Positions 2,194 to 44,808 of a DNA stretch of 45,231 nt are shown here, one piece after another. The stretch spans positions 1 through 45,231 of the forward strand of contig JABDKS010000890.1 of the NCBI GenBank assembly GCA_013002105.1. The letters are read 5' to 3'. Both the position numbers and the translations under genes were made by a program. Every line of letters starts with the position of its first letter. Positions within the stretch are counted from its first letter, which is position 1. The notes beneath the pieces are model-generated. The model did not search any database, was not told the origin of the DNA, and was given only the letters and a program-made list of their open reading frames with translations. Source of the stretch: Pirellulaceae bacterium. Lineage in GTDB: Bacteria; Planctomycetota; Planctomycetia; Pirellulales; Pirellulaceae.

Positions 2194-3055
2194 CGCATTT
2201 TCCCTTTAATTTTTGTGTCGTCGAATCGCTACGATTGTACCTTGTCGGAAGTCACGCGCTGGCGATGACATCAGAGCGACCCGGCTACCGCGAATGGAGT
2301 CCGACGCTATTGACGGCCTCCTCTGGGTAGGCGTGTTGGCCACCGAAGTTCGTTTTCTCGTCGACGCATTACAATTTGCGAAGTGGGAGCAGAGGCGTGT
2401 CGCTGTGCTGCAAAGCCTGGAACAACGAGCGTCGGCGTTGGGAATTGGGTTCTCGGGAAATCGAGCAATCACTCTGCCATTTCGGTAACTGACGAAGTGT
2501 CGAATGCCGCTCTCCCATTCTGCAGTTGCGTCCCAAGTTTACGTCGAATCGATATCGTTCACTTCCAAGTCTGAACGTTATGTCAGCTGAGTCACGACTG
2601 CTGCATCAAGCCATTTCTGTATTCAGGTGACTAAACCGAGCGTCGTCACGAAGAGCGTTGCTTCTGCTGAACTCTTTTATTCTTCGGAGTGCTGGCTACC
2701 AGCCAGTTCGCAGATTGAGCGTTTGTAAAAGCCATTCGTGGCTTTGAACTTGGAGCCGACTCGTGTGGTACTCTCCCCGCCATATTGCCCGTTCCAAATG
2801 ACCGGTGTTCCGTCCGGCGGAACCGATTCCCTCCGTCCCACCGAACCATACGGTTCATGAGAACTGCGGGTTAATCAGGTTGAAAATTCTTGATCCTTGG
2901 CAACGTCGCATGCAGCGCTGGCCATTCGATTGTTATGGCGATCGCGGCTGGGATGTTGGGAGTAGAGGTTGTCGAGCAACAGGAACTGTTTGATGTGGCT
3001 TTCAACAGCTCTGCGCGTTATGGACCGAGCTCTGCCGTCGGCACAAGTCGATCGT
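2194..3055. other. Gene-poor interval with a short repeat and a possible coding scrap
   Basis: About 860 bases lie between the start of the FAD oxidoreductase and the end of the PQQ gene. Reading frames here look like chance openings. A short frame on the + strand from about 2883 to 3071, with an ATG at 2936 (MAIAAGMLGVEVVEQQELFD), has fairly normal codon use and runs slightly into the end of the PQQ gene, but I do not recognise it. A GTTCCG/CGGAAC hairpin sits at 2807-2823 with no T-run after it. The dispersed repeat at 2645 is listed separately. Confidence 0.4.
2645..2687. repeat. Dispersed repeat, copy A
   Basis: The 25 bases beginning GTCACGAAGAGCGTTGCTTC recur at 8829 with one mismatch. 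The next 18 or so bases (a T-rich ACT...TTCTTCG stretch) are similar in both copies. Orientation is the same. Both copies lie in non-coding gaps. I cannot tell whether it belongs to a genome-wide family. Confidence 0.6.
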
Positions 3056-4456
3056 TCACGGCGTTTTGATACAGAACAATCGTCCCGCCGTGCGGAAATA
3101 CAATGCGTCGTTGGAAACTGCCGGTGTCGACCACGTCATTTCATCAATCTCGTTTTGCCCAATCACGTTGAAGCTGGGTCCTCCGGCCAACACAAACGTC
3201 GTGCCGCCGGTATCGACGCAAAACACCTTGCCATCCTGAACCCATGGCGAGGCCCAAAAAGCGCGTGCCCCCGCAATTCGCTTTTTGTAAACCTTTTCGC
3301 CAGTCGAAGCATCAATACAGTGGACAATCCCACTGCGCCGCTCCAGCAGATACAAATGGCCCTGGCAAAGGACGGGCGACGCCATTTGGATTCCCGACCC
3401 AGCCAATTGCCACAGGACAAATTCACTCTCACGCGACCCATCATCGATCGATAGCTCGCCACCTCCACCTGGTTTGATGGCGAATAAGAATCCACCGCCG
3501 TCGTCGGCACCACCTCGGTCTCGAAACTCAGTACCCACGTACAAGCGGTCACCTTGTGCCAACGGAGTTGCGGAACTGCGTCCCTTTTGCATATCCAACT
3601 GCCACAGCAAGTTTCCTGTGTCGGGGTCATAAGAACGATAGACCATCCCACCGGCAATCAACTCGTTGCGTTGACCGTTCTGCCAAATGATGGGGGAGCT
3701 GTATTGCGATTTTTCGTCTCGTTGGACCTTCCAGATCTCATCCCCCGTCGCAGCGTCTAACGCTACGAGGAAAGATTGCTGCTCGTTATCGATTTGTAGA
3801 AACAGTTTTTCGTCGAACAAGATCGGTGAACTTGCTGTGCCCCACCCGGCACGCATCGGATAATTACCCAAATCTTTCTTCCAGATCAAATTGCCACTGA
3901 CGTTGTAGCAGTAAACACCCATCATTCCGAAATATGCGTAGACCCGTTTTCCATCTGTGATGGGCGTCTCGGTGGCGTAGGAGTTGGAACTATGCCGCGG
4001 CAACGCTGGTCGACCTTCGCGAGCCGTTTGACGCCACAGTTCCGATCCAGTTTGTGCATCGAGACTGACCACCTGCCATTGATAGCTGACTTCGGTCAAG
4101 TCATCCCGACGCGTCCCACCGCCTCCGCGATACTCCTCGGGCTTTGAAACGGCACTCTCAGTCGCCAACCCAACGGGTACCGCCTCGGTCAGGAACACCT
4201 GATCACCCCCCACAACTGGGCTCGACCAGCCTTCGCCCTTGAGCGAGATCGCCCAGGCGACGTTTTCCGAGACCGTCCATCGGTTTGGATGAGAGGACTC
4301 GGCCACACCATTGGAGTGTGACCCGCGAAACTGCGGCCAGTCGCCTGCTGTCGCGAGACCCACGGGACCAAGCGACGAGAAAGCGACAACGAGACAAAAG
4401 TACTGTTGGGCCAAGAGGTTTCTAACGTTGAACAATCTTGGTTTTCGGTGAATCAT
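3056..4456 (-). CDS. PQQ-like beta-propeller repeat protein, secreted
   Basis: The frame is open from 4612, but the ATG at 4456 is the better start. It gives a 466-residue protein with a signal peptide whose hydrophobic core is YFCLVVAFSSLGPVGLATA. The first 52 codons upstream of it are basic and low-complexity. The mature protein begins GDWPQFRGSHSNGVAES, the standard opening of planctomycete outer-membrane PQQ-like proteins. Repeating blades follow, each with an A-T/A-x-G-x-x-x-W motif (DAQTGSELWRQ, DAATGDEIWKV, DPDTGNLLWQL). The fold is an eight-bladed propeller. Such proteins sit in the periplasm or at the cell surface and often bind no PQQ. No enzyme residues can be assigned. The gene looks monocistronic. 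Confidence 0.87.
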   Translation of the reverse strand: MIHRKPRLFNVRNLLAQQYFCLVVAFSSLGPVGLATAGDWPQFRGSHSNGVAESSHPNRWTVSENVAWAISLKGEGWSSPVVGGDQVFLTEAVPVGLATESAVSKPEEYRGGGGTRRDDLTEVSYQWQVVSLDAQTGSELWRQTAREGRPALPRHSSNSYATETPITDGKRVYAYFGMMGVYCYNVSGNLIWKKDLGNYPMRAGWGTASSPILFDEKLFLQIDNEQQSFLVALDAATGDEIWKVQRDEKSQYSSPIIWQNGQRNELIAGGMVYRSYDPDTGNLLWQLDMQKGRSSATPLAQGDRLYVGTEFRDRGGADDGGGFLFAIKPGGGGELSIDDGSRESEFVLWQLAGSGIQMASPVLCQGHLYLLERRSGIVHCIDASTGEKVYKKRIAGARAFWASPWVQDGKVFCVDTGGTTFVLAGGPSFNVIGQNEIDEMTWSTPAVSNDALYFRTAGRLFCIKTP

Positions 4457-4642
4457 ATCTTGGATCAACAAACGAGATAAGCGGACATTGTGACGGCATT
4501 TTAGCGGTGTGTCTGAAGCAGGAAAAACGATGTCGAACTGTTGGGTAGAGCGTCCGATCGCGGAGCCGACAGATCTAAATCGGAATTGGATCGCGCGGGT
4601 CGCCGTTGCCAAGTGAAACTTAATTGAGCAGGCGTTGCTTCG

Positions 4643-7012: not shown

Positions 7013-8491
7013 CTACTTCGACTCGTGCAACGCCTCGGCGTCACGCTTGATTCCGTTGACCATTGTCGGAAATACGAAGAAGTGAAGTGGCAGTACAGCA
7101 TACCAATATGCTAAGCCAAGTAACCCTTTCGGACGGAACCGGGCGGTTTGGGTCACCCGCGTGGTGTCCTCCGTTATCGGCTCGACACGAAATTCCAATT
7201 CAGCGACTCCGGGCAACTTCATTTCTGCGTGCAATCGTAACCATCGGCCGGTCGTGTAACCGTTGACACGCCAAAAGTCGACCGCCTCACCGTAACTCAG
7301 ATACTCTGGATGACGGCGACCACGGCGAAGTCCGGGACCACCAATTGCTTTGTCCATGAGTCCGCGCAGCCACCAAAGCCAGTCCGCGCCCCAATAACCA
7401 TACCGCCCACCAATTCGACTCAGGGCAGTAAACGTCTCGCTAGCTGCAGCGTCAATCATCCTGGAACGCGTATCTTCAAAAACTTTTCCGCCTGACCACT
7501 CGGGATCGCCGGGCATTTCACCTGCGGTTGACCACCTGGTTTGAATATCACCCTCTCTTAGCTTTCCTAGAGCCGCATCTAGCGAGTTCTGGACATCGAA
7601 AAGCGGTCCAGGCATGAGTTTTTCAGCATCGTCGTTGCGACAAACTGTTCGGTTTCGCAAACCTTCCGCCAACGGTCGAGCAATTCTTGCGTTGACCGGA
7701 GTGACTAACGAAATCCACGCGGAACTGAGTTTCGGTGTAAGAACGGGGACTGGCAAAATGATTCGCCGAGGAAGACCGAGCGCTTTAGCCATCATTTGCA
7801 TCAGCTCTTGATAGGTAAAGACATCTTGTCCCCCAATGTCGATAACGCGTCCTGCGCTCTCTGGGACGTCCAAACACTGAACCAAGTATCGCAGCACATC
7901 TCGAATGGCGATCGGTTGTGTCTCAGTTTTCACCCATCGCGGCGTAACCATGATCGGCAGTCGCTCCACGAGATAGCGCAGAATCTCGAACGATGCTGAT
8001 CCCGAGCCGATGATCATCGCAGCGCGAAAGACGGTCGTTTCGCACCGGCTGGTCTGCAGAATCTCGGCAACTTCGCGACGGCTGTGTAAGTGCGGGCTGA
8101 GGTCGGGTCCGAGTTCACCCAGTCCGCCCAAATAGATGAGCCGTTGGCAGCTGGACCGATCCAGTCCGGCCACGAAATTGCTCGCCAACTCGCGGTCACG
8201 TTTCGCGTAGTCTTCACCAGCGCTGATCATCGCATGGACAAGATAGTAGGCTGCATCGACGCCGACTGCCGCGGCTGCAATCGTTTCGACGTCATCCAAG
8301 TCACCCTCAATGACTTCCAGACGCTCGTCGTCGCACCACGGGAAGGCACGCAGCTTTTTGGGACTGCGCACCAGGCAACGTACGGTAAGTCCCTTTCCGA
8401 GCAATTTCGGGACTAAACGTCCACCGACATACCCCGTTGCCCCACACACGAGAACATGGTTGTTTTTTTTAGGATGCAAGATTTGCTCCAA
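7013..8491 (-). CDS. NAD(P)-binding SDR-like protein with C-terminal DUF2867 domain
   Basis: The 492-residue protein opens with an atypical short-chain dehydrogenase/NmrA-type Rossmann motif (VLVCGATGYVGGRLVPKLL, residues 13-31), continues through a YYLVHAMISAG segment, and carries LIYLGGLGELG further on. From about residue 340 the DUF2867 domain follows, with the typical tryptophan-rich RYGYWGADWLWWLRGLMDKA and a VNGYTTGRWLRLHAEMKLPG core. Fusions of this kind are common in environmental bacteria and are annotated as oxidoreductases or membrane-associated epimerase-like proteins. The substrate is unknown. The C-terminal FRPKGLLGLAYWYAVLPLHF could contact the membrane. The start at 8491 gives the normal Rossmann spacing. 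Confidence 0.87.
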   Translation of the reverse strand: MEQILHPKKNNHVLVCGATGYVGGRLVPKLLGKGLTVRCLVRSPKKLRAFPWCDDERLEVIEGDLDDVETIAAAAVGVDAAYYLVHAMISAGEDYAKRDRELASNFVAGLDRSSCQRLIYLGGLGELGPDLSPHLHSRREVAEILQTSRCETTVFRAAMIIGSGSASFEILRYLVERLPIMVTPRWVKTETQPIAIRDVLRYLVQCLDVPESAGRVIDIGGQDVFTYQELMQMMAKALGLPRRIILPVPVLTPKLSSAWISLVTPVNARIARPLAEGLRNRTVCRNDDAEKLMPGPLFDVQNSLDAALGKLREGDIQTRWSTAGEMPGDPEWSGGKVFEDTRSRMIDAAASETFTALSRIGGRYGYWGADWLWWLRGLMDKAIGGPGLRRGRRHPEYLSYGEAVDFWRVNGYTTGRWLRLHAEMKLPGVAELEFRVEPITEDTTRVTQTARFRPKGLLGLAYWYAVLPLHFFVFPTMVNGIKRDAEALHESK

Positions 8492-9201
8492 TGCAGAATT
8501 CTGTTCGATGCATTGTTGTCAGTTGACAAGATACAGCCCGCCGACCGGAGTTCACGCTGATCGTAAGTCGAATACGAGCTTCGATGAACCACGTAGCTGG
8601 TCGACTCATCCGCGTAGTGGCATCGCGAGAGTTTTTTTTCACGAATCGTGAGAGATGCTTGGCACCGTGCCGCACGGCTTTGATGTGTTTCAGCGGGAAG
8701 TAAGACAGCCAGGCAGTAGATCCCCCGTCTCTGCTCGCGCTCAAGGCCGACTTCACGTCCGAAATCCAGGCATGCAGAGTCAAACACATATTTCTGGATG
8801 CCGAGTTTCGAGAGATACACCGAGAGTTGTCGCGAAGAGCGTTGCTTCTGCTGCACTTTATTGTTCTTCGATCTGATGCTGCCACGCCAATTGGTTCAAA
8901 GTGCCTTACGGGCTGCCGTGGCATTTCCCACAGGACGCGTCCGTCTACTGAGTTAGGCGACGCTGAGACTTAAGACACTACCAATAGAAGTGTGATGCTG
9001 TCGGCGTTGTGCCGCTTTTGTTGCACATTCGCGATAGCCTTTGCTTGCATGCACCGATGGCGTGAAACATCTACCACGTTACGTTTCTATTGCTGAGCCG
9101 GATTCTGGCGTGCTATAGGAGATCGAAAACCTTTACCGCCAAAAAATCGTGCCCGTCGCGGTGCGCGATTCTGCAGTACTCTTTCACATTAAAGGTTCAC
9201 C
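8492..9201. other. Gap of about 700 bases, no supported gene
   Basis: The interval separates two divergent genes. Long open frames exist on both strands around 8650-8870 (for example a minus-strand frame with SKLGIQKYVFDSACLDFG), but no start, ribosome site or known motif supports any of them. The second copy of the dispersed repeat is at 8829. The good Shine-Dalgarno (AAAGG) just before 9202 belongs to the DUF1353 gene. The content of 8650-8870 may be a decayed gene. Confidence 0.4.
8829..8870. repeat. Dispersed repeat, copy B
   Basis: The first 25 bases match positions 2645-2669 with a single A/G difference, in the same orientation. The next part is a diverged ACTTTATTGTTCTTCG stretch comparable to copy A. 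It is non-coding here too. Confidence 0.6.
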
Positions 9202-25905: not shown

Positions 25906-25921
25906 GCAACGACTGTGCCAA
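25906..25921 (-). promoter_or_regulatory. Candidate sigma-54 promoter before the Usp fragment
   Basis: The minus strand reads TTGGCACAGTCGTTGC, a full match to TTGGCACR-N4-TTGC with GG and GC 12 bases apart. The predicted start site is about 25894. Confidence 0.65.
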
Positions 25922-31779: not shown

Positions 31780-32712
31780 TCAGTTTTCCATCTGAATAGG
31801 GCAAACGAAGTCAGATGGTTTCAAGGCGAGTACCGAACAAGTGAGTTGATTGAGTATTTGCTCGGCTGTGTTGCCCATGACCATTCCGGAAACTCCGGAA
31901 CGCCCGACCGTTCCCATAACAACCAAATCAACGTCTTGATGGTCAACAAAACTTGAAATTGCCGCAGCGGTGTTTCCTTTAATCAGGTGGACGTTTTTGT
32001 CGTTCAGGCCGCTTCCATGCTTCGCCAAGAATTTTTCCAACTGAGTTTCGACTTGATGTTGACTTGATTGAACCATCTCGGCGAAGGAGTCTGGATCCAT
32101 ACGATGTTTTAGCATCGGTTCATTCCAAACCGACCAAGCGTGAACGATCGAGTAGTATCCACCGTGGTAATGGCTAATGTTTCGCGATAACTCAAGCACT
32201 TTGTCGTTGGTCTCGACGTCGCGAGGGTCGTCTGTCGCCGTATCAACGCAGCCAAGGACGTGTTGGAACTGGACCCGCGACGGCGTGACCAGCCAAACAG
32301 CACAGGGGCACTTACGCATTAACCGCATACCGGTATTGCCAAAGAATCCCTAGCCTCCACTTTCCCTGCCCTTGTGAATCCGTAGTACCAAGTCGTGTTC
32401 ACAACGCAGGACCTCGCGAATGATCTCCACCGAGGTTTTCCCCTGCAGCACTCTCGTTTCGACGTCGACCCCCTTTGCCCGGATTTTTGCTTCCATCGCA
32501 TCGAGCTTCTCTTGTTTTTCTTGACCCATCAACTCACGCATGTGCTCGTGGTCTTTCAAGGTAAGCCTGACGGTCCAAGGAAAGTCTGGGACCACGTCCA
32601 CAATCTTCAGTGACGCGCCATTGTGCATGGCGATCTCAACCGCTTCGTCAACGATTGGGTGCTCACCCCATCGAGTGTCGGTCGCGACGAGTATGTTTTT
32701 AAATCGTTTCAT
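31780..32712 (-). pseudogene. Tandem universal stress protein broken by one in-frame amber codon
   Basis: Two halves lie in the same frame. The first starts at 32712 (MKRFKNILVATDTRWGEHP) and stops at a TAG at 32352-32350, codon 121. Translation then continues without a frame change as GFFGNTGMRLMRKCPCAVWL and a complete second Usp domain (VMGTVGRSGVSGMVMGNTAE, CSVLALKP), ending at 31780. The total of 310 codons equals the intact paralogue at 27927 (309). The context GGC-TAG-GGA-TTC suggests AAG (Lys) mutated to TAG, giving KGFFGNTG in the ancestor. It may be a recent nonsense mutation, a sequencing error or a readthrough site. An internal ATG at 32328 could start the second half. Confidence 0.82.
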
Positions 32713-34178: not shown

Positions 34179-35222
34179 CTACAACGTACACATATCGACG
34201 TTGTCGAAGTTACGTCCGTAGAAGTTCATGTACTCGACTTTTCTTTCAATCGCTTCAACGATCGTATTCGAAAAATTGACCTTCTCGAACTGCTGCGCGC
34301 TGCCGAGCCCACCGGGGCTGAATACGTTAATCTCCATCAACTTGTCGCCGACAATGTCCAGGCCCACCAGGAACATTCCGTCCTGCACAAGTTTTGGTCG
34401 CACGATCTCCGCAATATGCAATTCCGTCGGACCAATTTCTGCGGCAGCTTTGCTGCCGCCTGCGTGGATGTTGCTGCGCATATCGTCGCCTTTTCTGACC
34501 CGGCGGAATGCAGCGTATTTTCCTTTCATCCGCAGTGGTCTGCCGTTCATCACAAACAACCGCGTGTCGCCTGCCTCGGCGGCCGGCAGATACTCCTGTG
34601 CAATCACAAAACCGTCTCGGCTGACTGCGTCAATCATCTGATTCAAGTTGGGGATGTCTTCCTTGCGGACCAGGAAGACGCTCGCGCCCCCGGAACCCTG
34701 AAGCGGTTTGATGACCATCGTTCCCTCTTCCCTTGCAAAGTGTTTGATTTCGTCGCGGTCGCGAGTGATCAAAGTTCTTGGACGAACCGCCTCTGGGAAC
34801 AGTTGAAAGTACATCTTGCTGGACGCCGTCGCGAGTCTGTTTGGATCGCTTAACACGATCACGCCGTTTCGCATGGCAACGCGAGCGAATTCGGTTGCCG
34901 CCGTGCTGGCCCAAGGGCGTTTGAGGTAGTCGTCCGATGGAACGTTGCGCATGACCAGAGCGTCAAGATCGTCAACGGTAACACGCCGCTTGACGGCATT
35001 CTTGCCTTTTAAATCCGCCGTATAGCTGTCCGAACTGCTGTACTTTGACTTGGGAACCGATGTCGCCCGGGCGTGGATCCTATCGTCAGGATCGTAGGCC
35101 AAATCGCCTACGCCGATCGTCCACACTTCGTGGCCACGATTCACTGCCGCTTGGCCAAGACGGCTGGTCGTGAACTTGCCTTCTTCCGTCGCGACATCGT
35201 TGACAATAAATCCAATTTTCAT
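34179..35222 (-). CDS. GSHB-like ATP-grasp ligase, paralogue 1
   Basis: The 347-residue enzyme starts at the ATG at 35222 with a Shine-Dalgarno (AAGGAA). It has an N-terminal glutathione-synthetase-like domain (MKIGFIVNDVATEEGKFTTS; LAYDPDDRIHARA) and an ATP-grasp domain with the nucleotide-binding lysine in VIKPLQGSGGASVFLV (Lys172), the adenine-contact Glu210 (IAQEYLPAA) and metal ligands in VGLDIVGDKLMEINVFSPGG (Asp289, Glu297, Asn299). ATP-grasp enzymes join a carboxylate to an amine through an acyl phosphate. The order MEIN-V-FSPGG mirrors MEINVTSPTG in glutathione synthetase. It is the last of five genes in the ligase/peptidase operon. Substrates unknown. Confidence 0.9.
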   Translation of the reverse strand: MKIGFIVNDVATEEGKFTTSRLGQAAVNRGHEVWTIGVGDLAYDPDDRIHARATSVPKSKYSSSDSYTADLKGKNAVKRRVTVDDLDALVMRNVPSDDYLKRPWASTAATEFARVAMRNGVIVLSDPNRLATASSKMYFQLFPEAVRPRTLITRDRDEIKHFAREEGTMVIKPLQGSGGASVFLVRKEDIPNLNQMIDAVSRDGFVIAQEYLPAAEAGDTRLFVMNGRPLRMKGKYAAFRRVRKGDDMRSNIHAGGSKAAAEIGPTELHIAEIVRPKLVQDGMFLVGLDIVGDKLMEINVFSPGGLGSAQQFEKVNFSNTIVEAIERKVEYMNFYGRNFDNVDMCTL

Positions 35223-35640
35223 ATTCCGTTCCTTATCATCGGTTGCAAAGTCTCAATGTCCCCAAGTGAAAGCTTCGATGAGGTCAATCCATGGGCAGGC
35301 GACTGATTTGGATGCGTGCTGATCCCATCACGACAGCGGCGCGCCGGGTCTGACGTCCGAGACGCATGGATCGTGATTCTGACCAATCAACGCCACGTCT
35401 GCAATTGCAACGGCCAAAACACTCGCCGCACATTCGAGCCAAGCAAATCATGCGTTGAACATAGGGCGGACAAATCCACCAAGGGCCTCGGTTTTTGATT
35501 CACCGCCGGGCGACCGCACACAGCAGTCGCAGCAATCCGCGATAGCCATTTCGTATTCACGCAGTTCGCCAACATGCGCCGCTTTTGAACGGCATAACAT
35601 GCAGTCGAGTCGGACAGAATAGCCGCCATCAGCGAATGAC
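35223..35640. other. Gap of 418 bases inside the ATP-grasp operon
   Basis: Unusually long spacing separates paralogues 1 and 2. A minus-strand frame from 35653 is open over much of it, but the product has no motif and opens inside the next gene. No promoter, terminator stem or repeat is convincing. The spacing raises the possibility that paralogue 1 has its own promoter or that a gene was lost here. Confidence 0.4.
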
Positions 35641-36687
35641 TCAGAGCGAACACAAGTCGACGTTGTCGAAGTTCCGCCCGTAAAATTTCATATAGTTCGC
35701 TTTACGCTCGAGTGCGTGAATGACGTACTTGTTGAAATTTATTTTGGTGAATTTTTGGGCGCTCCCAAGTCCACCTGGACTGAACACGTTGATCTCCATC
35801 AACTTGTTACCCACGATGTCCAAACCGACCAGAAACATGCCGTCCTGAACAAGTTTGGGTCTCACGATTTCCGCGATTTTGAGGTCCTTCTCGGTGACTT
35901 CGGCAGCAGCCAACTTTCCGCCGGCGTGGATATTGCTGCGCATGTCATCGCCGCTTCGTGTGCGACGGAAAGCGGCATACTTGCCTTTGACTTGCAATGG
36001 TCGTCCATTCATCACAAACAGTCGCATGTCACCTTCTTGCGCGGCTTCCAGATACTCCTGGCAGATGACGAATCCATCGCGGCTAACCGCGTCAATCATC
36101 TGATTGAGGTTTGGGATATCACTTTTTTCTACGAGGAACACACTGGCGCCGCCGGAACCCTGCATCGGTTTTAGCACGCATCGGCCTTCTTCCTTGGCAA
36201 ACGCTTTGATCTCGTCACGGTCGCGCGTGATCAGAGTGCGCGGGCGGACTTCTTCGGGGAACAATTGGAAGTACATCTTGGTATTCGCCTTGGCCAGGCC
36301 ATTGGGATCGTTGACCACAATCACGCCATGACGCATCGCAACGCGACCAAACTCCGCAGCAGTCGTTGCCGCCCAGGGTCGCTTGAGGTAATCGTCCGAC
36401 GGAACGTTACGGAGCATCAACACATCGAGATCATCGACCGTGATGCGTTCCCTGACACCCTTGGCACCTTGAAGATCCTTGATGTAAGTCTCTTGAGAGC
36501 TGTACTTTTTGTCTTTGGGCACGGTCAGCGCGCGTGCACGAACAGACTCATCCGGGTCGTAGGCCACGTCGCCGACCCCAATCATAAAGGCTTCGTGGCC
36601 TTGCTTGTGCGCTTCGTGCGCAAGGCGCACGGTTGTAAATCCTTTTTCTTCTGTCATGACGTCGTTGACGATAAATCCGATCTTCAT
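35641..36687 (-). CDS. GSHB-like ATP-grasp ligase, paralogue 2
   Basis: The 348-residue paralogue is close to number 1 over its whole length (MKIGFIVNDVMTEEKGFTTV, YFQLFPEEVRPRTLITRDRD, VLKPMQGSGGASVFLV, EMGDMRLF-type core, VGLDIVGNKLMEINVFSPGG). All ATP-grasp catalytic residues are kept. The Lys context KPMQGSGG and Glu in FVICQEYLEAA agree with the family. The ATG at 36687 has an AGAAGGGA ribosome site. Two near-identical ligases in one operon suggest either different amino acid substrates or a hetero-oligomer. It ends with the conserved tail YGRNFDNVDLCSL. Confidence 0.9.
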   Translation of the reverse strand: MKIGFIVNDVMTEEKGFTTVRLAHEAHKQGHEAFMIGVGDVAYDPDESVRARALTVPKDKKYSSQETYIKDLQGAKGVRERITVDDLDVLMLRNVPSDDYLKRPWAATTAAEFGRVAMRHGVIVVNDPNGLAKANTKMYFQLFPEEVRPRTLITRDRDEIKAFAKEEGRCVLKPMQGSGGASVFLVEKSDIPNLNQMIDAVSRDGFVICQEYLEAAQEGDMRLFVMNGRPLQVKGKYAAFRRTRSGDDMRSNIHAGGKLAAAEVTEKDLKIAEIVRPKLVQDGMFLVGLDIVGNKLMEINVFSPGGLGSAQKFTKINFNKYVIHALERKANYMKFYGRNFDNVDLCSL

Positions 36688-36770
36688 CTAACAAATCCCT
36701 TCTAAGTACAAGCGTTTTGGCTTGAATGGAAAATTGAATGCGAGCAAGCAGGGGTGCTTGTCGTAGGTCT

Positions 36771-37802
36771 CTATAGTGTGGCCAGATCCACGTTGGCGAA
36801 GTTGCGGCGGTAAAATTTCATGTAGTCGACTTTTCGTTCCAGCGCTTCGAGCACGGCATGCGTGAAGTTGACTTTCTCGAATTTCTGTGCGCTGCCGAAT
36901 CCGCCAGGGCTGAACACGTTGATCTCCATCAGTTTATCGCCGACGATGTCCAGTCCGACCAGGAACATGCCGTCTTCGACTAATCGCGGCCGAACCATCT
37001 CGGCAAGCCGGAAGTCCATGTCGCTGAGTTCCGCCCGGCGGAGCTTTCCACCGGCGTGAATGTTGCTGCGGATGTCGTCGCCTGATCGGATTCGCCTGAA
37101 CGCGGCATACTTGCCCCTGTGCCGCAGCGGAATGCCGTTCATCAAAAACAGACGCGTGTCGCCATCTGCGGCGGCAGGTAGATACTCTTGCGCCACGACG
37201 TATCCGTCCCGACTTACCGACTCGAAGATATCTGGCAGATTGTGCTCCTCGTTGGAACGGATGATGAACACGCCCGTTCCACCGGAGCCCTGTAACGGTT
37301 TGATGATGATCCTGCCCTCGTCATCGAGAAATTTTTCGATGCGGCTCAGGCTGCGAGTCACCAACGTGCGCGGCCGCACGCTTTCGGGAAACGTTTGCAG
37401 ATACAATTTGTTCATCGCCTTGGCCAGGCCGTTGGGATCGTTCAACACAATCACGCCGTGGCGCATCGCCAATCGTCCGAAGTGGATACCCGCCGACTGC
37501 GCCCAGGCTTTTTGTGCCGACGGGTTGTTGCGCAACAGCAGCACATCGAGATCGTCAAGCGTGATCCACTGATTGATCGCTTTGTCGCTTTTGAAGACAC
37601 TTAGAAATCGTTCGGAATTATAACGGCCCGGTGGGACTGTCCTGGCAAACGCGCCGATCGTATCGTCTGGGTTGTACGCCAAGTTGCCCGTGCTCATGAT
37701 CGACACGTCATGGCCCATATTGATCGCATCTGCGGCCAGTCGATAGGTGGTCGCACCGGCTTCATTGCTGTCCATCACGTTGACGACGATTCCGAGTCTC
37801 AT
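36771..37802 (-). CDS. GSHB-like ATP-grasp ligase, paralogue 3
   Basis: The 343-residue protein is the most diverged of the three (MRLGIVVNVMDSNEAGATTY; LAYNPDDTIGAFARTVPPGR). It keeps the ATP-grasp sites: IIKPLQGSGGTGVFII, VAQEYLPAAADGDTRLFLMN and GLDIVGDKLMEINVFSPGGF. Its ATG overlaps the stop of the DUF1704 gene by 4 bases (ATGA), so peptidase and ligase are translationally coupled. That is the strongest sign that the two activities act on the same molecule. The C-terminus YRRNFANVDLATL resembles the other two. The likely role is peptide-bond formation on an unknown acceptor. Confidence 0.9.
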   Translation of the reverse strand: MRLGIVVNVMDSNEAGATTYRLAADAINMGHDVSIMSTGNLAYNPDDTIGAFARTVPPGRYNSERFLSVFKSDKAINQWITLDDLDVLLLRNNPSAQKAWAQSAGIHFGRLAMRHGVIVLNDPNGLAKAMNKLYLQTFPESVRPRTLVTRSLSRIEKFLDDEGRIIIKPLQGSGGTGVFIIRSNEEHNLPDIFESVSRDGYVVAQEYLPAAADGDTRLFLMNGIPLRHRGKYAAFRRIRSGDDIRSNIHAGGKLRRAELSDMDFRLAEMVRPRLVEDGMFLVGLDIVGDKLMEINVFSPGGFGSAQKFEKVNFTHAVLEALERKVDYMKFYRRNFANVDLATL

Positions 37803-39760
37803 TTCTTGATTCCCTTCTTGGATCGACCTGAACTGACCAAGTCGACAACGGTGCTGTCGCTACCGCGCAATCGTTCGAGCCGACCAATGGCGGCTTCATC
37901 CTGCATATATCGCGGTACCATAGCGACTGGGTTGAGTACCTTGCGATACTGCAATTCCTTGATAATGGGGATGTGTTCGACAGCCATTTTTCCCACCAGC
38001 AGCGGTTTCAAGTCGCCACCTTTTTGCACGTAACCCAGAATCGCGCGAAGCCCGCGCAGGTAGACCGCGTCCTTGGTCAAACCGCCTCCGCGATAGACCC
38101 GCATCGTAATGTTGTACGCCGTACGTTGTGTGAATCCGTAATCGTCGTCTAGCGCGCGAAACGTCTCGATAAACGACGCACCATCGACCATGTGCCGCAC
38201 TGCCACGACGCGAGCGGCCAGTTGCCGCATTCGACCGCTGCTGAGCCCGTCGACTAAATACTCTGACAGGACCGCGAGACCTTCCTGCAGTTCTTCGTAG
38301 CCTGCCAATCCTGAATAAAGTTGTTGGAATGGCTGTGTGCGACCGTTGTAGTACGTCAGCAAGTGGGTGCCCACTTCGTGCGCTAACAACGCTGCAACGC
38401 GTGACGGCGGCAGGCTCATCTCCGAATTAATCATTAGTTTGCCGCGAGAGACAATCAGTCCGCTGACATCGGGCGATACCAACGTTTTGGCTTTGAATCC
38501 TGAACATAGGTTTCGATAGTATTCAAAGTCGGCCTCGGCAAGTTTTGCAAAACGCTGCGCGCTGACATGGCGGCCTTTCTCTTTTTCACTTTTGCCCGAC
38601 AACTGCTCTAGCAGCTCCTTCGCCAGTTTCAGCAGATCGTCCTTGACGCCGCCAAATAGTTGCAGGCTTTCATACAAGAAACGCGGCGTGTCGCGGTCCC
38701 GCAACATCGTCAGTTTTAACTCTAATTCTTCCTGTTTTTCTTGGAACAATCGCTGCAGAGCCGGATCTTCGACTCGCTCGATGGGAATCTTATAGAGGTC
38801 GCGTTTCAGCACGGTTGGGTCAACCGGCAAGGGACGATAATGAAACTCAGGAGCCTTCTCGAACTCCGCGCGCTGAAACTGTTTCCAGGCAGCATTCGAA
38901 TTGACGGGCGTCAATTGCAGTAGGTAATCGAACTGATTGCTGACCGCGGCCAGTTGTCGATCGATCTCCCAAACGGCTTTGACCACCGCCTTGCGTCCCA
39001 AGGCATGAAAATGTGGTGGACGATGAGTCGTTCGCGACCGAGCAAATTCGTAGTACGTTTGTCGTAGCGCCAGGCTCAGCCCTTGCCTCAAGGACCGTGC
39101 CAACAAAGGAAACTCGGCGGTCGAGTTGGCCTCGCGAAATACCGGCGGTACGGCTACTCCGATGAACATGCAATTCAATTCGCGTGCCTCGGCATTGGTC
39201 AGCAGCGGCTTCATGTCCGGTGGGTGAGTTTTGCCGCCACGCGTCACTTCGACTTTGACACCGTGCTTGAGAACTTTAACTCGCTTGAGACGTTTTGCGA
39301 GCGCGTCGACCGACCGAGTCAGTTTTGTGGTCTCCGGCGCGTTAATGGTGAACGTCGGCAGAACAGAAGGGACGGCTGGATCGTTCGCCTTGCCGCCGTC
39401 GGGCGCCGACCAAATTTCGACGATCAAGAAAGCGCCGAACTCAGCCGACAGCGTTGACGCCACATTGCGTATCAGCTTTGCGATTTTGGAGCGATACTGC
39501 GGATTGCCCGGAGCGATTAAGTAAGACGCTTCGCCTTGCACAAGACGCTCTGTGCCAGCATCCACATCATCGGGCGGTTGACGGTAGACAGTCAAAAATG
39601 GCAATTGGCGATCAATGTGCAACCGCCCCTTTTCGGGCAGCGCTCGACGCACACGCTGATTCTTTGCCAGCCGCTGACACACTTCGTCAATCAGCGAGAC
39701 CGAGATTTCCTGATTCGTTTCGCGCGTCGTCGTCCGCTTTTTCTTTCTCTTTGCAGTCAT
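37799..39760 (-). CDS. DUF1704 zinc metallopeptidase (QEGLA-motif family), first copy
   Basis: Counting from the ATG at 39760 the protein has 653 residues; an ATG at 39778 and a TTG at 39799 are alternatives. The basic start (MTAKRKKKRTTTRE) precedes the DUF1704 domain. The catalytic site is HEVGTH (His461, Glu462, His466), an HExxxH zinc motif, with a further Glu in the QEGLAVLSEYLVDG helix (Glu493). The family is annotated as flavohemoglobin expression-modulating QEGLA proteins. Its animal members (MATCAP/KIAA0895L) remove the C-terminal tyrosine of alpha-tubulin. A carboxypeptidase role is therefore likely. It lies second in the operon and is coupled to an ATP-grasp ligase. Confidence 0.88.
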   Translation of the reverse strand: MTAKRKKKRTTTRETNQEISVSLIDEVCQRLAKNQRVRRALPEKGRLHIDRQLPFLTVYRQPPDDVDAGTERLVQGEASYLIAPGNPQYRSKIAKLIRNVASTLSAEFGAFLIVEIWSAPDGGKANDPAVPSVLPTFTINAPETTKLTRSVDALAKRLKRVKVLKHGVKVEVTRGGKTHPPDMKPLLTNAEARELNCMFIGVAVPPVFREANSTAEFPLLARSLRQGLSLALRQTYYEFARSRTTHRPPHFHALGRKAVVKAVWEIDRQLAAVSNQFDYLLQLTPVNSNAAWKQFQRAEFEKAPEFHYRPLPVDPTVLKRDLYKIPIERVEDPALQRLFQEKQEELELKLTMLRDRDTPRFLYESLQLFGGVKDDLLKLAKELLEQLSGKSEKEKGRHVSAQRFAKLAEADFEYYRNLCSGFKAKTLVSPDVSGLIVSRGKLMINSEMSLPPSRVAALLAHEVGTHLLTYYNGRTQPFQQLYSGLAGYEELQEGLAVLSEYLVDGLSSGRMRQLAARVVAVRHMVDGASFIETFRALDDDYGFTQRTAYNITMRVYRGGGLTKDAVYLRGLRAILGYVQKGGDLKPLLVGKMAVEHIPIIKELQYRKVLNPVAMVPRYMQDEAAIGRLERLRGSDSTVVDLVSSGRSKKGIKK

Positions 39761-39933
39761 CGTGATCTTCGGGTGCATAACGCTTTGTGAAGCTGCCAAA
39801 TTATCGGACTCGATGCGATGGGTAGCCTAATAGTGAAATTGTCTTGATTCGACCAATCGGCCGCATGTGCTCCTCAGTATCGCTCGCGATCAGATTCGGG
39901 ATGATGCTTTGGCGTCGTCAGCAGTCGCACGGG

Positions 39934-40716
39934 CTATGCTCTCTTTAACGCATCTAGCACCGATGGTGCCGTAAACTTCAATGCGTCTCCAATTGCCTCC
40001 ACCATCAGGTTATCTGGCTCGCCACTCCATTCGTCCATAAAGAACTTCTTGAACTCGATCGCGATCGCGATACCGTTGTCAGGAAATTCATCATGAATCC
40101 ACCGTGGCCAGTTGCCGCCTCGGAATTTTACGTTTTCCCTTACGTCCAATTTACCGCCTGGGAAGTCAAACGAACGCAGCGTGTCAAGGAACGAGTCCAC
40201 GACAGGAGCCCAGCGTTGACGGTCCATCGTGCCGGTGCCGATATTGACTTGTGGATTCGCCTCTGGGTCAGCGGTTGGACCATCGGGTCCCTCTCGACGA
40301 TGGTTGTAGGTATGCAAGTCAAAAACGATGAAATGACCGTACTGTTCTGCGATCGCGGTAAACATCTCGTGCATCGATGCGTAAAAAGCATCGTATTGTT
40401 CCAATGAACGATTGAACATTTCGTTTGGCGGATCGTCCTTCCAGACGTTCAGCCCCCAAGCATCTTCCGGTTTACGGTAGACGGCCTTCTCGCGAGGACG
40501 GTTCAGGTCCACCTCGAAACGCGACCGTGTACCGACAACGCGGGTCGGCGCGACCTCGGCCCACTCTCCGGTGAATGGATCCTCCTCGCGCAGTTGTTCC
40601 AGATCGGTCAGGGCCAAATGCTTCGCCACGTCGTCGCGAACGTCGTGCCCATCATGTACCGCAGTTGCAATTAGCGGGCCGCTGCCAAGGTGCAAACGCC
40701 ATATCTGATCCGTCAT
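39934..40716 (-). CDS. N-formylglutamate amidohydrolase-like hydrolase
   Basis: The ATG at 40716 has a good ribosome site (GAGG, spacing 7), preferable to the ATG at 40737. It gives 260 residues. The PF05013 pattern includes VHDGHDVRDD near the start, a central FVIFDLHTYNHRREGP with the zinc-type Asp-Leu-His, VNIGTGTMDRQRW, then FRGGNWPRW and IAIAIEFKKFFMDEW. Enzymes of this family hydrolyse N-formyl-L-glutamate to formate and glutamate, but relatives cleave other N-acyl amino acids. No histidine-degradation genes are nearby, so the classic role is doubtful. It is probably the first gene of the operon with DUF1704 and the ligases. Confidence 0.85.
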   Translation of the reverse strand: MTDQIWRLHLGSGPLIATAVHDGHDVRDDVAKHLALTDLEQLREEDPFTGEWAEVAPTRVVGTRSRFEVDLNRPREKAVYRKPEDAWGLNVWKDDPPNEMFNRSLEQYDAFYASMHEMFTAIAEQYGHFIVFDLHTYNHRREGPDGPTADPEANPQVNIGTGTMDRQRWAPVVDSFLDTLRSFDFPGGKLDVRENVKFRGGNWPRWIHDEFPDNGIAIAIEFKKFFMDEWSGEPDNLMVEAIGDALKFTAPSVLDALKRA

Positions 40717-40762
40717 GATTGATCCTCGAGAACTCATTTTTGTGTAGAGTGTTCAAGCCGTA

Positions 40763-40777
40763 GCAACCACCGTACCG
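40763..40777 (-). promoter_or_regulatory. Candidate sigma-54 promoter of the ligase/peptidase operon
   Basis: The minus strand reads CGGTACGGTGGTTGC, followed by T. The -12 box TTGCT is perfect and GG and GC are 12 bases apart. The -24 box CGGTACG differs from TGGCACG at two positions. Start site would be near 40751, 35 bases before the ATG at 40716. It is weaker than the promoters at 23-26 kb, but a sigma-54 activator gene starts 99 bases away on the other strand. Confidence 0.42.
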
Positions 40778-40875
40778 AAAGCATACCGGGGCTCGCAAAC
40801 GGTGCGATAAACGCATTCACATACATGACTTACGTTTGGCAAGGTTGATTTTCCGAAGGTAGCAATTGAAAGGAT

Positions 40876-42378
40876 TTGCCGATAGAATCGGGTGTTGGCA
40901 CCCGCAACTTGGGTTCTCAATCGACTCGGTTTAAGGGTGAAGTCATTCTCGTACGAATCTTAATTGTCGTTGACGATCGTGAGTTGGAGCGACGATTTGA
41001 TCGGATTTGCGAGCCACTTGAAACAGCAGTCGCTACTGCTCCGCACAACGGGTTGTTGTGGGATCGGGTGACCGCGTTCCCCACCGACTTGGTCGTGATC
41101 GGACGGTCGTCGCTTACGGATCCGATTGATGCGACGGTCGAGACGATTCGGGCGCTCCCGGATCGGCCCGAGGTAATCGTCGTCGGTGAGGACGAACAGG
41201 TAGGTGAGCGGGCGAGTTTGCTGATCGCAGGTTGCACGGCGGTATTGAACACGTCACTTGATGACGACACGCTGCGGAAGGCATTTGACGCTTTTGTGAG
41301 TCGCCAGCGCAAGTCGGGCATCGAACGGTTGCAACGCGAAATCGACGCGCCGCAGGCGCAACTGAGCGACTTTGATTCGGTGAGCACGACGATGCAATCG
41401 TTCCTGCGAATCGTGAAACGAGTTGTCCAGCCAGACAGTTCGCTGCTGATTCAGGGTGAGACCGGTGTCGGCAAGGAACGTTTGGCGCGGGCAATTCACG
41501 CGGCCAGTCCGAGGGCGGGCAGTCCGTTCATTCCGGTTATTTTGTCGGCCTTTCCCGAATCACTCGTGGAGGGAGAACTGTTTGGATATGTCGCGGGAGC
41601 GTTTACGGGCGCGGTCGGGACACGTCGAGGCTGCTTTGAACTTGCCCACGGCGGCACGATCTTCTTGGACGAAATTGGTGAACTGCCGCCGCACATTCAA
41701 GTCAAGCTTTTGCGTGTACTACAGGATCGTACGATCCAACGGCTCGGAAGTGAAGAATCGATTCGCGTCAATGTCCGCGTGATGGCGGCGACGAACCGCA
41801 ACCTGTTGGACGAGGTCAAATCCGACCGGTTTCGTCAGGATCTGTACTATCGTCTCAGTGTCGTGACGCTCGAGATTCCTCCGCTGCGGCATCACAGCGA
41901 AGATATTTCGAAACTGGCAAACCGCTATCTAGACGAATTTCGTGTTCGGCTTAACAGTAAAGTGACCGCGTTTACTGAGGAGGCGATGCAAGCGATGGAG
42001 CGATATCCGTGGCCCGGCAACATCCGTGAAGTCATCAATGTTGTCGAACGTGCCGTCCTGTTGTGCGAAGGGGAAAAGATTACGGTTGACGACCTGCCGC
42101 GAACGATCGTTCCCGCGCCACGAAATTCAGGTAGCCTGGAATCGACTTCCTCGCTCGATGCGCTTTTTGAAGGAGATTGGCATTCGCGTCCGTGGAAAGA
42201 CGTCCGCAATGCGATCATCAGTTCGTGCGAACAAGCGTACTTCGTCCGTCAACTTGGATTGACCAACGGCAACGTCGAAGAAACCGCTCGTCTGTCGAAA
42301 ATCAATCCGCGGTCACTTTACGATCTGATGAAGCGGCACGGCATGAAAAAAGAGTCCTTCAGAAACGGCGGAAAGTAG
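40876..42378 (+). CDS. Sigma-54-dependent activator with a degenerate receiver domain
   Basis: The 500-residue protein is an NtrC-type bacterial enhancer-binding protein. Residues 26-150 look like a receiver ([10 protein letters not shown]), but the phosphoacceptor strand reads [10 protein letters not shown] where an Asp is expected, so phosphorylation is unlikely. The AAA+ domain has Walker A GETGVGKE (194-201), the sigma-54 contact loop GAFTGA (241-246), Walker [13 protein letters not shown] and the arginine-finger region. A Fis-type HTH ends the protein ([20 protein letters not shown]). The annotated start is a TTG. The real one may be further in, around the AAGGGTGA near 40933. It is divergent from the amidohydrolase operon. 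Confidence 0.9.
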
Positions 42379-42870
42379 GAACTTGGCACTGTTGTTGACT
42401 CATCATTGTTGCGTGCAGGCGAAACGGGATTGGGGAGGTGTAATCATCGCGAGTCAGATAATCGCTCTCAGCGCCACTTTTCGCTAGCCAATGGGCGGTA
42501 GCCCCGGTTGTCTTTGGAAGGAACCGCGGCTATCACCGTTCGCTTCTCGGGACAGGAAAACACAGCGTTCTGATTCCAAAGTGGCGGTGTCCCATCAAAA
42601 ACATCCACGGACGCTATCGACGAATTGTCGTTGTCAAACAGGTTGTCGCTCGCTGCTGTGTGTCGGCTCCACTCGCTCCGCTCACGGGCAGAACGCCCCA
42701 GGCCGAGATTCATTTGATAGTGATCATTCGACCGTGATTCATATTGCGCGAAATATGCAAATGGCGGTGGCAAGAACTTGCGACGGGCGAGCACGAAGTG
42801 TTTTCGTTTTTGCTGCTGCTATGTTTATGTTATTGAGCAAACCACAAGTTACCGTGTCCTGGAATTGCGC
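42379..42870. promoter_or_regulatory. Leader region of the second DUF1704 gene
   Basis: About 490 bases lie between the activator and the peptidase. A box TGGCAC-TGTTG-TTGA at 42384-42398 has a perfect -24 element, but GA where the -12 GC is expected. A second TGGCAAGAACTTGC at 42768-42781 has good boxes but is one base too short. A near-perfect 11-base hairpin (TAGCCCCGGTT / AACCGCGGCTA) sits at 42499-42532. No coding function is seen. A minus-strand frame over 42468-42794 has no support. Confidence 0.35.
42499..42532. repeat. Inverted repeat in the leader
   Basis: Arms of 11 bases with one mismatch flank a 12-base loop. There is no T-run after it, so it is not a standard terminator. It could be a REP-like element, an RNA structure or a protein site. 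Confidence 0.5.
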
Positions 42871-44808
42871 ATGGCATCCAACATGAATTTGGTCGCGGAC
42901 AATGAAACGATTACGGCAGCCGTGATTGAGGATGTTTGCGCACGTCTACTGGCCAATAAACGGGTCCGTCAGCCCCTACCGGGTGGCGGCATGCTGGAAA
43001 TGGACCGGATGTTACCGTTCCTCTGCATTTATCGCCGAGATCCCAATCGTCGCGACGAAGGGACAGCCCAGTTGGTCAGGTCGGAGGCATCTTTTCTCTC
43101 CGCACCCGGATCTTCCCCAGATCGAGGCGGGCTTCGGACGCTGGTCCGACGAATTGCCCAGACGGTCTCCGGTCAACTCGGCTCGTTTTTATTGTTGGAG
43201 GTTTGGTCGGGCGAAGATGAGCTGCACGTGGACGATACAACTGGCGAACGGCAGCTTCCCGAGCCATTGTTTCGCATCATGCCGCGGCGGCCCCATCGGC
43301 CAGCAGGAACGGTAGCGACTTTGGGTCATGCGTTGAAGCAGATTCGTGTTCATCGCAAGTCGGCGATCGTGGAAATCAATCGCGAAGCCAACAATCATCC
43401 CAATGGTATGAAACCGCTGATATCGGAGCGGGCCGAAATGAGCATTGGTTGCCATGTGCTGGGACTTGAGGTCCGACCGCTTTATCGGGATGCGGACTCG
43501 GGCGAGATTTATGATCGCGTCATGCGGTCCTACAATCGGCAGGTGTCTCACGCGATTAAGAAGACCTTCTTTGCCTTTGCCCAGGACCGCACCACGGTTC
43601 GACCCGAACACTATTTCTCATTTGGTTCCAGCAAGCTCTCCAGTCAGGTGCTGGCAGTTGACCGGCAGCTCTCCGATCTCAGTCACCAGTTCAAGTTTTT
43701 GCTGCTCGTCACTCCAATTAATGCTCAGCGTTCCTGGCTTGATTTTTCACAGGGCGGGTATCGCAAGTCTCCTGTTTTTCAGTATCGCCCGCTGGACGGG
43801 GACCCGATGTTATTGAAGCGGCGGGTCACCAAAGTGGCGACCGAAAAGGTCGAAGATCCGGCTTTGTCTCACATCTTTCGGCAAACCCAATACGAACTTG
43901 ATCGGCAGATCAACATGCTGGCGGACATCGGCACGTCGCGGTTCTTACACGGCAGCCTGCAAGTCTATGGAAATGTTCAACCTCGTCTGCGAAATCTCGC
44001 GCTAAAGATTCTCCGGAAGTCCACCACTGAGAACCAAAAGGGCGATCAGGCTGAGATGCTCGGCTCGCGAGCATTCTTTCGGCTGGCTGAGAAGGAAGTC
44101 GACTTCTATCGCAAACAGTGTTCCGCATTCACGGCCAAGGTCACCATTCGTGATGACATCTATACCGGGCTGATGGTTACGGGTGGCGAGCTTTTGATTG
44201 GGCGCGAATCGCGGCTTTCCAAAGCTCGAGCCGAGGCGTTATTGCAACATGAGGTGGGGACACATTTGGTCACCTACTACAATGGTGCGGCGCAGCCCCT
44301 GCGATTGTTGCGCAGCGGGTTGGCTGACTACGACGCCTTGCAGGAAGGAATTGCAGTGTTGTCGGAGTACCTTGTCGGCGGCTTGAGTATGGGACGCTTG
44401 CGTACCTTGGCAGCCCGCGTCGTTGTCGCGGATGAAGTTGCCAGAGGTTCGTCGTTTTGTGATGTGTTCGAGCGGTTGGTTGATGAGATGCGTTTCGAGC
44501 CGCGGACCGCCTACACGATCGCACTTCGCGTCTTTCGCGGAGGCGGGCTGACCAAAGATGCACTGTACTTGCGCGGGTTGGTCGAGATACTCGAATACCT
44601 CGGCGCCGGGGGTGAAATCGAGCCTTTGCTGTTGGGCAAGTTTGCCGTCGAGCACGTCCCCATTGTCCGCGAGTTGACCTTGTGTGGTGTCCTGCGTAAA
44701 CCACCTCTACGGCCAAGATATCTTGATTCGCCAGCAGCTTTGCAGCGGCTCAAGAAGATCGAACGCGGGACGACCGTGATCGACCTGATCGATCTGCAAC
44801 GAGTCTAG
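42871..44808 (+). CDS. DUF1704 zinc metallopeptidase, second copy
   Basis: The protein has 645 residues from the ATG at 42871. Upstream codons in the frame are not conserved with the first copy, whose core also begins near IDEVCQRLAKNQRVRRALP. An ATG at 42883 is equally possible. Catalytic residues are HEVGTH (His460, Glu461, His465) and the QEGIAVLSEYLVGG helix (Glu492). The two copies align along their length, with many shared blocks (HYRPLP / QYRPLD; TKDAVYLRGL / TKDALYLRGL; VEHIPI / VEHVPI). It lies in the activator's orientation. An ancient duplication with a possibly different substrate or timing is likely. Confidence 0.88.
   Translation: MASNMNLVADNETITAAVIEDVCARLLANKRVRQPLPGGGMLEMDRMLPFLCIYRRDPNRRDEGTAQLVRSEASFLSAPGSSPDRGGLRTLVRRIAQTVSGQLGSFLLLEVWSGEDELHVDDTTGERQLPEPLFRIMPRRPHRPAGTVATLGHALKQIRVHRKSAIVEINREANNHPNGMKPLISERAEMSIGCHVLGLEVRPLYRDADSGEIYDRVMRSYNRQVSHAIKKTFFAFAQDRTTVRPEHYFSFGSSKLSSQVLAVDRQLSDLSHQFKFLLLVTPINAQRSWLDFSQGGYRKSPVFQYRPLDGDPMLLKRRVTKVATEKVEDPALSHIFRQTQYELDRQINMLADIGTSRFLHGSLQVYGNVQPRLRNLALKILRKSTTENQKGDQAEMLGSRAFFRLAEKEVDFYRKQCSAFTAKVTIRDDIYTGLMVTGGELLIGRESRLSKARAEALLQHEVGTHLVTYYNGAAQPLRLLRSGLADYDALQEGIAVLSEYLVGGLSMGRLRTLAARVVVADEVARGSSFCDVFERLVDEMRFEPRTAYTIALRVFRGGGLTKDALYLRGLVEILEYLGAGGEIEPLLLGKFAVEHVPIVRELTLCGVLRKPPLRPRYLDSPAALQRLKKIERGTTVIDLIDLQRV

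Follow-up and report, generated by a model that had tools for sequence, protein, structure and literature searches.

The eukaryotic cycle on tubulin tails pairs an ATP-grasp ligase, the class to which the TTL enzymes belong, with a peptidase of the MATCAP/TMCP type (KIAA0895L and KIAA0895). These tubulin metallocarboxypeptidases remove C-terminal residues and also shorten glutamate chains (PMC10499314, in excerpt). A comparable pairing of an ATP-grasp glutamate ligase with a protease, in this case a retropepsin-like one, is found in RimABK (PMC11957791, in excerpt). Bacterial members of the MATCAP family (DUF1704) are common, yet carry only a vague automatic name; the origin of one such name, "flavohemoglobin expression-modulating", was not found in the open-licence literature. 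Here, we describe a cluster of seven genes at positions 34179-44808 of a Pirellulaceae contig (JABDKS010000890.1; the whole stretch of 45,231 nucleotides is called the window), in which a long form of MATCAP is joined by GshB-like ATP-grasp ligases, an N-formylglutamate amidohydrolase (FGase)-like metallohydrolase, and a sigma-54 activator. The association of ligase, peptidase, and FGase is far beyond chance, and this module may make and trim a small peptide.

Two long-form MATCAP proteins and an FGase-like hydrolase

The gene inventory of the initial annotation, comprising three ATP-grasp genes, two DUF1704 genes, an FGase-like gene, and a divergent sigma-54 activator, was recovered in full. 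Judged by the closest relatives of its sequences, the window appears to be planctomycete. The minus strand carries, in this order, the FGase-like gene, a MATCAP gene, and the three ATP-grasp genes, while the activator and the second MATCAP gene lie on the plus strand, divergent from these five:

34179 to 35222, minus strand: grasp1, GshB-like ATP-grasp ligase of the NF009110/PRK12458 subfamily, paralogue 1
35641 to 36687, minus strand: grasp2, GshB-like ATP-grasp ligase, paralogue 2
36771 to 37802, minus strand: grasp3, GshB-like ATP-grasp ligase, paralogue 3, with a 4-base overlap with mat1
37799 to 39799, minus strand: mat1, long-form MATCAP/QEGLA protein (DUF1704); a possible start at 39760 corresponds to the 653-residue version in the protein database
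39934 to 40716, minus strand: fgase, N-formylglutamate-amidohydrolase-like metallohydrolase with conserved motifs; start at 40737 in the list of open reading frames (ORFs)
40763 to 40777, minus strand: sigma-54 (-24/-12) promoter-like site CGGTACGGTGGTTGC upstream of fgase
40876 to 42378, plus strand: sigma-54 activator, with an N-terminal domain without Pfam match and an AAA+ domain with lid
42384 to 42398, plus strand: weak sigma-54-like site TGGCACTGTTGTTGA upstream of mat2 (shuffle p 0.063)
42778 to 44808, plus strand: mat2, second long-form MATCAP/QEGLA protein, also with an FGase-like N-terminal domain

Both MATCAP proteins match PF08014 far above its gathering cut-off of 27 bits (mat1 314 bits, mat2 296 bits), and TIGR02421 (cut-off 339 bits) is exceeded by mat1 (352 bits) and narrowly missed by mat2 (328 bits). 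In mat1, an FGase-like domain (residues ~46-260) precedes the MATCAP metallopeptidase domain (residues 293-658), which contains HEVGTH at 474 and QEGLA at 505; the corresponding motifs of mat2 are HEVGTH at 491 and QEGIA at 522. Among the long-form ORFs of the window and of the first set of related loci introduced below, HExGxH is present in 92/92 and a QEGLA-like motif in 91/92; for human TMCP1, to which the window peptidase was aligned, residues E281 and E316 have been described (PMC10499314, in excerpt). The window peptidase also shows the fold of human MATCAP and is, by sequence and fold, a true relative of it. The bacterial long form differs from the eukaryotic enzymes, for which alone a protein substrate is established, in its additional FGase-like domain and in adjoining a GshB-like ligase and an FGase.

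This N-terminal domain has lost both metal-ligand histidines. The position of His28 is occupied by Tyr or Phe in 46/47 rows and by His in one (this correspondence was assigned by eye, the stretch lying outside the hhalign alignment), that of His142 by Trp or Phe in 47/47 rows, whereas the catalytic Glu is still Glu in 28/47 and is Ala in mat1. From the loss of both histidines, the domain is probably dead as an enzyme. Elsewhere, an FGase is fused to MATCAP with a ligase adjoining, and a motif search in six such fusions revealed the H motif in 5, RxxxDLNR in 5, DxH in 4, and EFKKF in 1.

The separate fgase gene belongs to the FGase superfamily by its profile match (PF05013, 72 bits, cut-off 29), its fold, and its conserved residues. 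It differs from the N-formylglutamate amidohydrolase of HutG type (structure 2q7s) in that it reaches only 26 bits against the deformylase equivalog TIGR02017 (cut-off 279 bits), a result that lowered the HutG reading. A ribosome-binding-like sequence and a conserved start suggest 40716 as the real start of this gene.

Conservation of the gene set

A neighbourhood survey in which these genes failed to stay together had been named in the initial annotation as one result that would overturn its reading, and the opposite was found. Among the best 80 of 380 genome-contig places found with MATCAP alignment A1, chosen by likeness to the window, 76 contain an ATP-grasp gene and 70 an FGase gene. FGase, MATCAP, and ligase genes lie in a row on one strand in 62/80 loci, and in 79/80 all hits are on one strand, with some of the exceptions falling at contig ends. 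According to record titles and lineages, these loci come from 13 phyla (Planctomycetota, Chloroflexota, Poribacteria, Myxococcota, Calditrichota, Bacteroidota, Gemmatimonadota, Kiritimatiellota, Acidobacteriota, Armatimonadota, Verrucomicrobiota, Pseudomonadota, and Thermodesulfobacteriota).

Since the 80 loci were picked by likeness to the window, even draws were added, comprising 199 genomes of the phylum Planctomycetota and 369 genomes of the class to which Sedimenticola (G006) belongs, each draw including its own module-bearing centre genome. PF08014 was detected in 38/199 and 54/369 genomes, respectively, and the corresponding loci comprise 29 long, 64 short, and 4 fused forms. Of the long-form loci, five of which also belong to the first set, 27/29 have an ATP-grasp match above 100 bits and 23/29 a separate FGase, and none lacks both. 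Beside short forms, an ATP-grasp match above 100 bits occurs in only 2/64 loci (L094 and L107, the latter possibly a cut long form), four more have a weak match of 49-66 bits, and an FGase occurs in 0/64. Therefore, the module link is a property of the MATCAP long form and not of the family at large.

On plasmid records, the genus tallies for MATCAP and for FGases of the fgase type agree (tallies rather than single records were compared), with Pseudoalteromonas, which has a short form, named in the MATCAP tally only. In Shinella and on pSymB of Sinorhizobium meliloti, an annotated FGase, a QEGLA protein, and a glutathione synthetase/synthase stand in a row, which makes S. meliloti a tractable test organism. 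The Pseudoalteromonas plasmid carries its short-form MATCAP gene close to genes annotated for betaine synthesis and for BCCT transporters, and the stretch shown is without an annotated ligase or FGase. Apart from a Photobacterium transcriptome discussed below, we recognised no paper on the bacterial module in the open-licence literature. With its long form firmly linked to a ligase and an amidohydrolase, and in many cases to a regulator, bacterial MATCAP can now be given a concrete and testable functional hypothesis.

Ligase subfamily and the glutathione question

The three ligases are intact, as had been proposed, with their catalytic motifs kept, and grasp3 shares positions 37799-37802 with mat1. 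All three exceed the cut-off (408 bits) of NF009110/PRK12458, a subfamily named glutathione synthetase, with scores of 450, 455, and 431 bits for grasp1, grasp2, and grasp3. They carry the same Pfam pair as E. coli GshB (PF02951 and PF02955) and can be aligned with it over the full length, including the EIN-x-x-SP motif, but have NVFSPGG where GshB has NVTSPTC, and they remain below both GshB equivalog cut-offs (NF003573, 214-220 vs 272 bits; TIGR01380, 197-202 vs 299 bits). RimK is a more distant relative, the ligases scoring 62-76 bits against the RimK-family model TIGR00768 (cut-off 143 bits).

According to the automatic annotation, the ATP-grasp genes would be glutathione synthetases, and their neighbours would recycle glutathione. 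While the subfamily name and the resemblance of the motifs to E. coli GshB favour this explanation, we consider it very improbable, given the missed equivalog cut-offs and the genetic tie to MATCAP. Furthermore, of the 39 module genomes (of unstated completeness), 15 have a GCS2 gene, a family that also includes enzymes other than GshA, 3 others have a proteobacterial glutamate-cysteine ligase, and 21 have neither family, which may argue against a glutathione role. Each of the three genomes with proteobacterial GshA has, on a different contig, one more GshB-like gene that scores below the NF009110 cut-off (G006, G010, and, as a partial gene, G011). NF009110 genes above the cut-off are present in the 39 module genomes and in none of 14 control genomes, and where MATCAP coordinates are listed (13 genomes), 17/18 of them lie within a few kb of MATCAP, the exception being located on contig C20 of G147. 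These tests of cut-offs, glutamate-cysteine ligases, and gene location lowered the glutathione reading, and they cast doubt on "glutathione synthetase" annotations in genomes seemingly without the first glutathione enzyme.

The presence of three successive ligases had been taken to suggest three additions. However, one ligase, one MATCAP, and one FGase is the commonest make-up (47/80 loci; ATP-grasp counts per locus may include split-gene pieces, e.g., in L002, L004, L037, and L059), so this idea is unsupported. The other two ligases of the window share 74% and 58% identity with grasp1, and the nearest relatives lie elsewhere, namely L054:13263 for grasp1 (87% identical) and L054:12108 for grasp2 (93% identical). 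In a tree of 123 sequences (quick method, SH-aLRT support, many forks weak), grasp3 falls into a 16-row clade (support 100), and grasp1 and grasp2 into a separate 28-row clade (support 99), with separate relatives of each in other planctomycetes, e.g., in L054 and L001. As judged from these clades, the triple set is therefore an old, retained elaboration and not the basic plan, and three additions were rejected as a general rule on the basis of locus make-up and ligase tree.

The gap between grasp1 and grasp2 (35223-35640) contains on the minus strand a short stretch, in two frames, that matches by eye an ORF from L001. The latter, which occupies the corresponding place in L001, has about 110 residues (8474-8803), and blastp groups with it a shorter ORF of L054 (13142-13258); the window stretch may be a small conserved or decaying ORF.

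A graspetide-like system, in which the ATP-grasp enzymes would modify a precursor peptide and MATCAP or the FGase would trim it, has in its favour that graspetides are defined by ATP-grasp ligases acting on precursor peptides (PMC8939145, in excerpt). Nevertheless, it appears exceedingly improbable, since the ligases score as GshB-like, with a maturase model matching only once and far under its cut-off, and since a survey of 4,093 small ORFs surrounding the core, grouped with blastp at E 1e-3 and with the twelve top groups listed, revealed no recurring precursor-like family; very divergent precursors would be missed by it. The widest recurring groups of this survey are antisense to activator genes. 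Survey and profile scores together lowered this reading.

Regulation, surroundings, and proposed function

An iterated search of the fetched loci with the N-terminal domain of the window activator revealed eight relatives (L001, L018, L031, L032, L054, L094, L103, and L105), all at most 3 kb from module genes and seven within 180 bases. They belong to two phyla, L032 being a Kiritimatiellae record and the others being titled or drawn as Planctomycetota. Among them are a fusion locus (L103) and a locus in which a short form is joined by a ligase (L094), so that rather dissimilar versions of the module share this regulator. No receiver domain was detected in the N-terminal domain of the window activator with Pfam at E 0.001 (a match in L094 is under the cut-off), and its C-terminal part is without a Pfam match, where L094 has a Fis-type helix-turn-helix.

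Sigma-54-like sites were sought in twelve chosen regions, with single-base shuffles as reference. Such a site stands upstream of fgase in the window (p 0.007), L001 (p 0.003), L031 (0/300 shuffles), and L054 (p 0.013), and a weak one in L018 (p 0.043), while none stands out in six regions from L032, L094, and L103. Across the window as a whole, sigma-54-like sites are not significantly in excess (61 found vs 51 expected). An exact pattern match, TGGCACAGTCGTTGC, lies at 25906-25920 on the minus strand; the nearest downstream ORF of at least 150 residues on the same strand starts about 1.3 kb away, opposite a plus-strand gene.

With eight Pontibacter loci set aside, 19/72 module loci of the first set are flanked by MscS-type channel genes, 27 in all (33.8 per Mb). 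This is 38-fold denser than genome-wide, where 39 of these genomes have 177 such genes in 201.8 Mb (0.88 per Mb), the flanks having been counted with a home-made profile and the genomes with PF00924; beside short MATCAPs, the density is 1.1 per Mb. Apart from Poribacteria, the flanked loci come from Planctomycetota, Calditrichota, Bacteroidota, Acidobacteriota, Verrucomicrobiota, Chloroflexota, Magnetococcales, and Kiritimatiellae. Magnesium-transporter-like genes (CorA, CNNM, and MgtE, named from their sequences) number 25 in 799 kb beside modules vs 9 in 900 kb beside short forms, a comparison between the two kinds of flank without a genome-wide baseline. One ORF of the window clustered with MscS. 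In L103, small-heat-shock-like genes (by eye), an MscS gene, and the sigma-54 activator lie beside the FGase-MATCAP fusion (1246-4629 and 7103-7984), forming a compact stress island.

The combination of sigma-54 control and MscS would also signal envelope stress if the ligase and the two hydrolases edited peptidoglycan-type peptides of the cell wall. We regard this as quite improbable, as the likeness to Csd4 is no closer than that to animal carboxypeptidases, and none of the recurring neighbour clusters listed was recognisable as a wall-synthesis gene. Unlikely, too, is a glutamylation-deglutamylation cycle tied to turgor, in which the GshB-like ligase would extend a peptide or protein tail and MATCAP with its dead FGase scaffold would trim it, tuning mechanosensitive channels and ion homeostasis under sigma-54. 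If true, such a cycle would represent the sort of bacterial context that the eukaryotic tubulin-tail peptidases derive from.

In Photobacterium damselae, at 1% vs 3% NaCl, RS17020 ("GshB") is up 38.4-fold, RS17025 (QEGLA) 27.5-fold, and RimK 52-fold (PMC10308900, in excerpt, where RS17020 is treated as a glutathione synthetase). Given the adjacent tags, and a gene arrangement that is shared by Photobacterium sp. DA100 (L137), RS17020 would be the ligase of the module.

The induction of RimK, a distant relative of the ligase, also bears on the editing of protein tails, in which the ligase would add residues to a protein C-terminus or a glutamate side chain and MATCAP would remove them, in parallel to TTL/TTLL and MATCAP on tubulin or to RimK and a protease on ribosomal protein S6. 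In enzyme class, ligase and peptidase correspond to their counterparts in the eukaryotic cycle, and the activities of TMCPs on C-terminal residues and glutamate chains would fit. Still, we find this possible but doubtful: the small-ORF survey revealed no small substrate gene that recurs near the module, and the ligases are of GshB type, in another subfamily than RimK. Moreover, we know of no part for an FGase in the tubulin cycle, which counts against tail editing. Nor do we know of an FGase in RimABK. Of the parallel to tubulin that was originally drawn, the relationship of the peptidase to MATCAP holds, whereas the remainder is an analogy only.

We prefer, with a probability of about one half, a sigma-54-controlled, probably cytosolic turnover module that makes and trims a small peptide, probably a glutamyl one, in response to stress. 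In an ATP-dependent step, the GshB-like ligase would couple a carboxylate with an amino acid, probably glutamate or a glutamyl compound, yielding a small peptide or a capped amino-acid conjugate, from which the MATCAP metallopeptidase would take off the C-terminal residue and the FGase-like metallohydrolase a group at the opposite end. The MATCAP-fused FGase-like domain without metal ligands would be the remnant of a fusion between FGase and MATCAP, probably serving to hold either the substrate or the active FGase, while the product or its breakdown would serve osmotic or envelope stress. The cytosolic location, the small-molecule substrate, the glutamyl chemistry, the physiological role, and the order of steps are what we infer. 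A glutamyl product is our best guess because the characterised kin GshB, RimK, FGase, and TMCP act on glutamate or glutamyl bonds, and the osmotic or envelope link is proposed because of the MscS neighbours and one salinity experiment. The original idea that a ligase builds and a peptidase trims persists as the best reading; the conserved gene order, the fusions, and the recurring activator support a real module, and the kinship with MATCAP holds.

Several points weigh against this interpretation. In the even draws, the MscS enrichment is weaker (6.2 per Mb, two genes only), the 19 MscS-flanked loci of the first set include six related Poribacteria, and the neighbour clusters listed include no one transporter family that recurs across the majority of loci. 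Induction took place at low, not high, salt, unlike that of a classical osmolyte. The activator was sought in short MATCAP-centred stretches (at most about 22 kb; the window has 45 kb), in which copies elsewhere are invisible. Furthermore, it is family kinship that suggests glutamyl specificity, no substrate or assay for the module was found in the open-licence literature, and a protein substrate may be encoded elsewhere in the genome.

The degenerate FGase-like domain and the fusions, the recurring sigma-54 activator, the MscS enrichment, and the missing glutamate-cysteine ligases in 21/39 hosts are new here, and the module bears on the origin of the eukaryotic tubulin-tail peptidases.

Beyond the cluster, the window is crowded with ion-transport and stress genes between 12011 and 32712, named by sequence inspection unless stated otherwise. 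These encode CNNM-like proteins, a Na/phosphate-cotransporter-like protein, a K+ channel with a TrkA-like part, a CPA2/Kef-like antiporter, and a P-type cation ATPase, as well as universal stress proteins at 31780-32712 (Pfam match).

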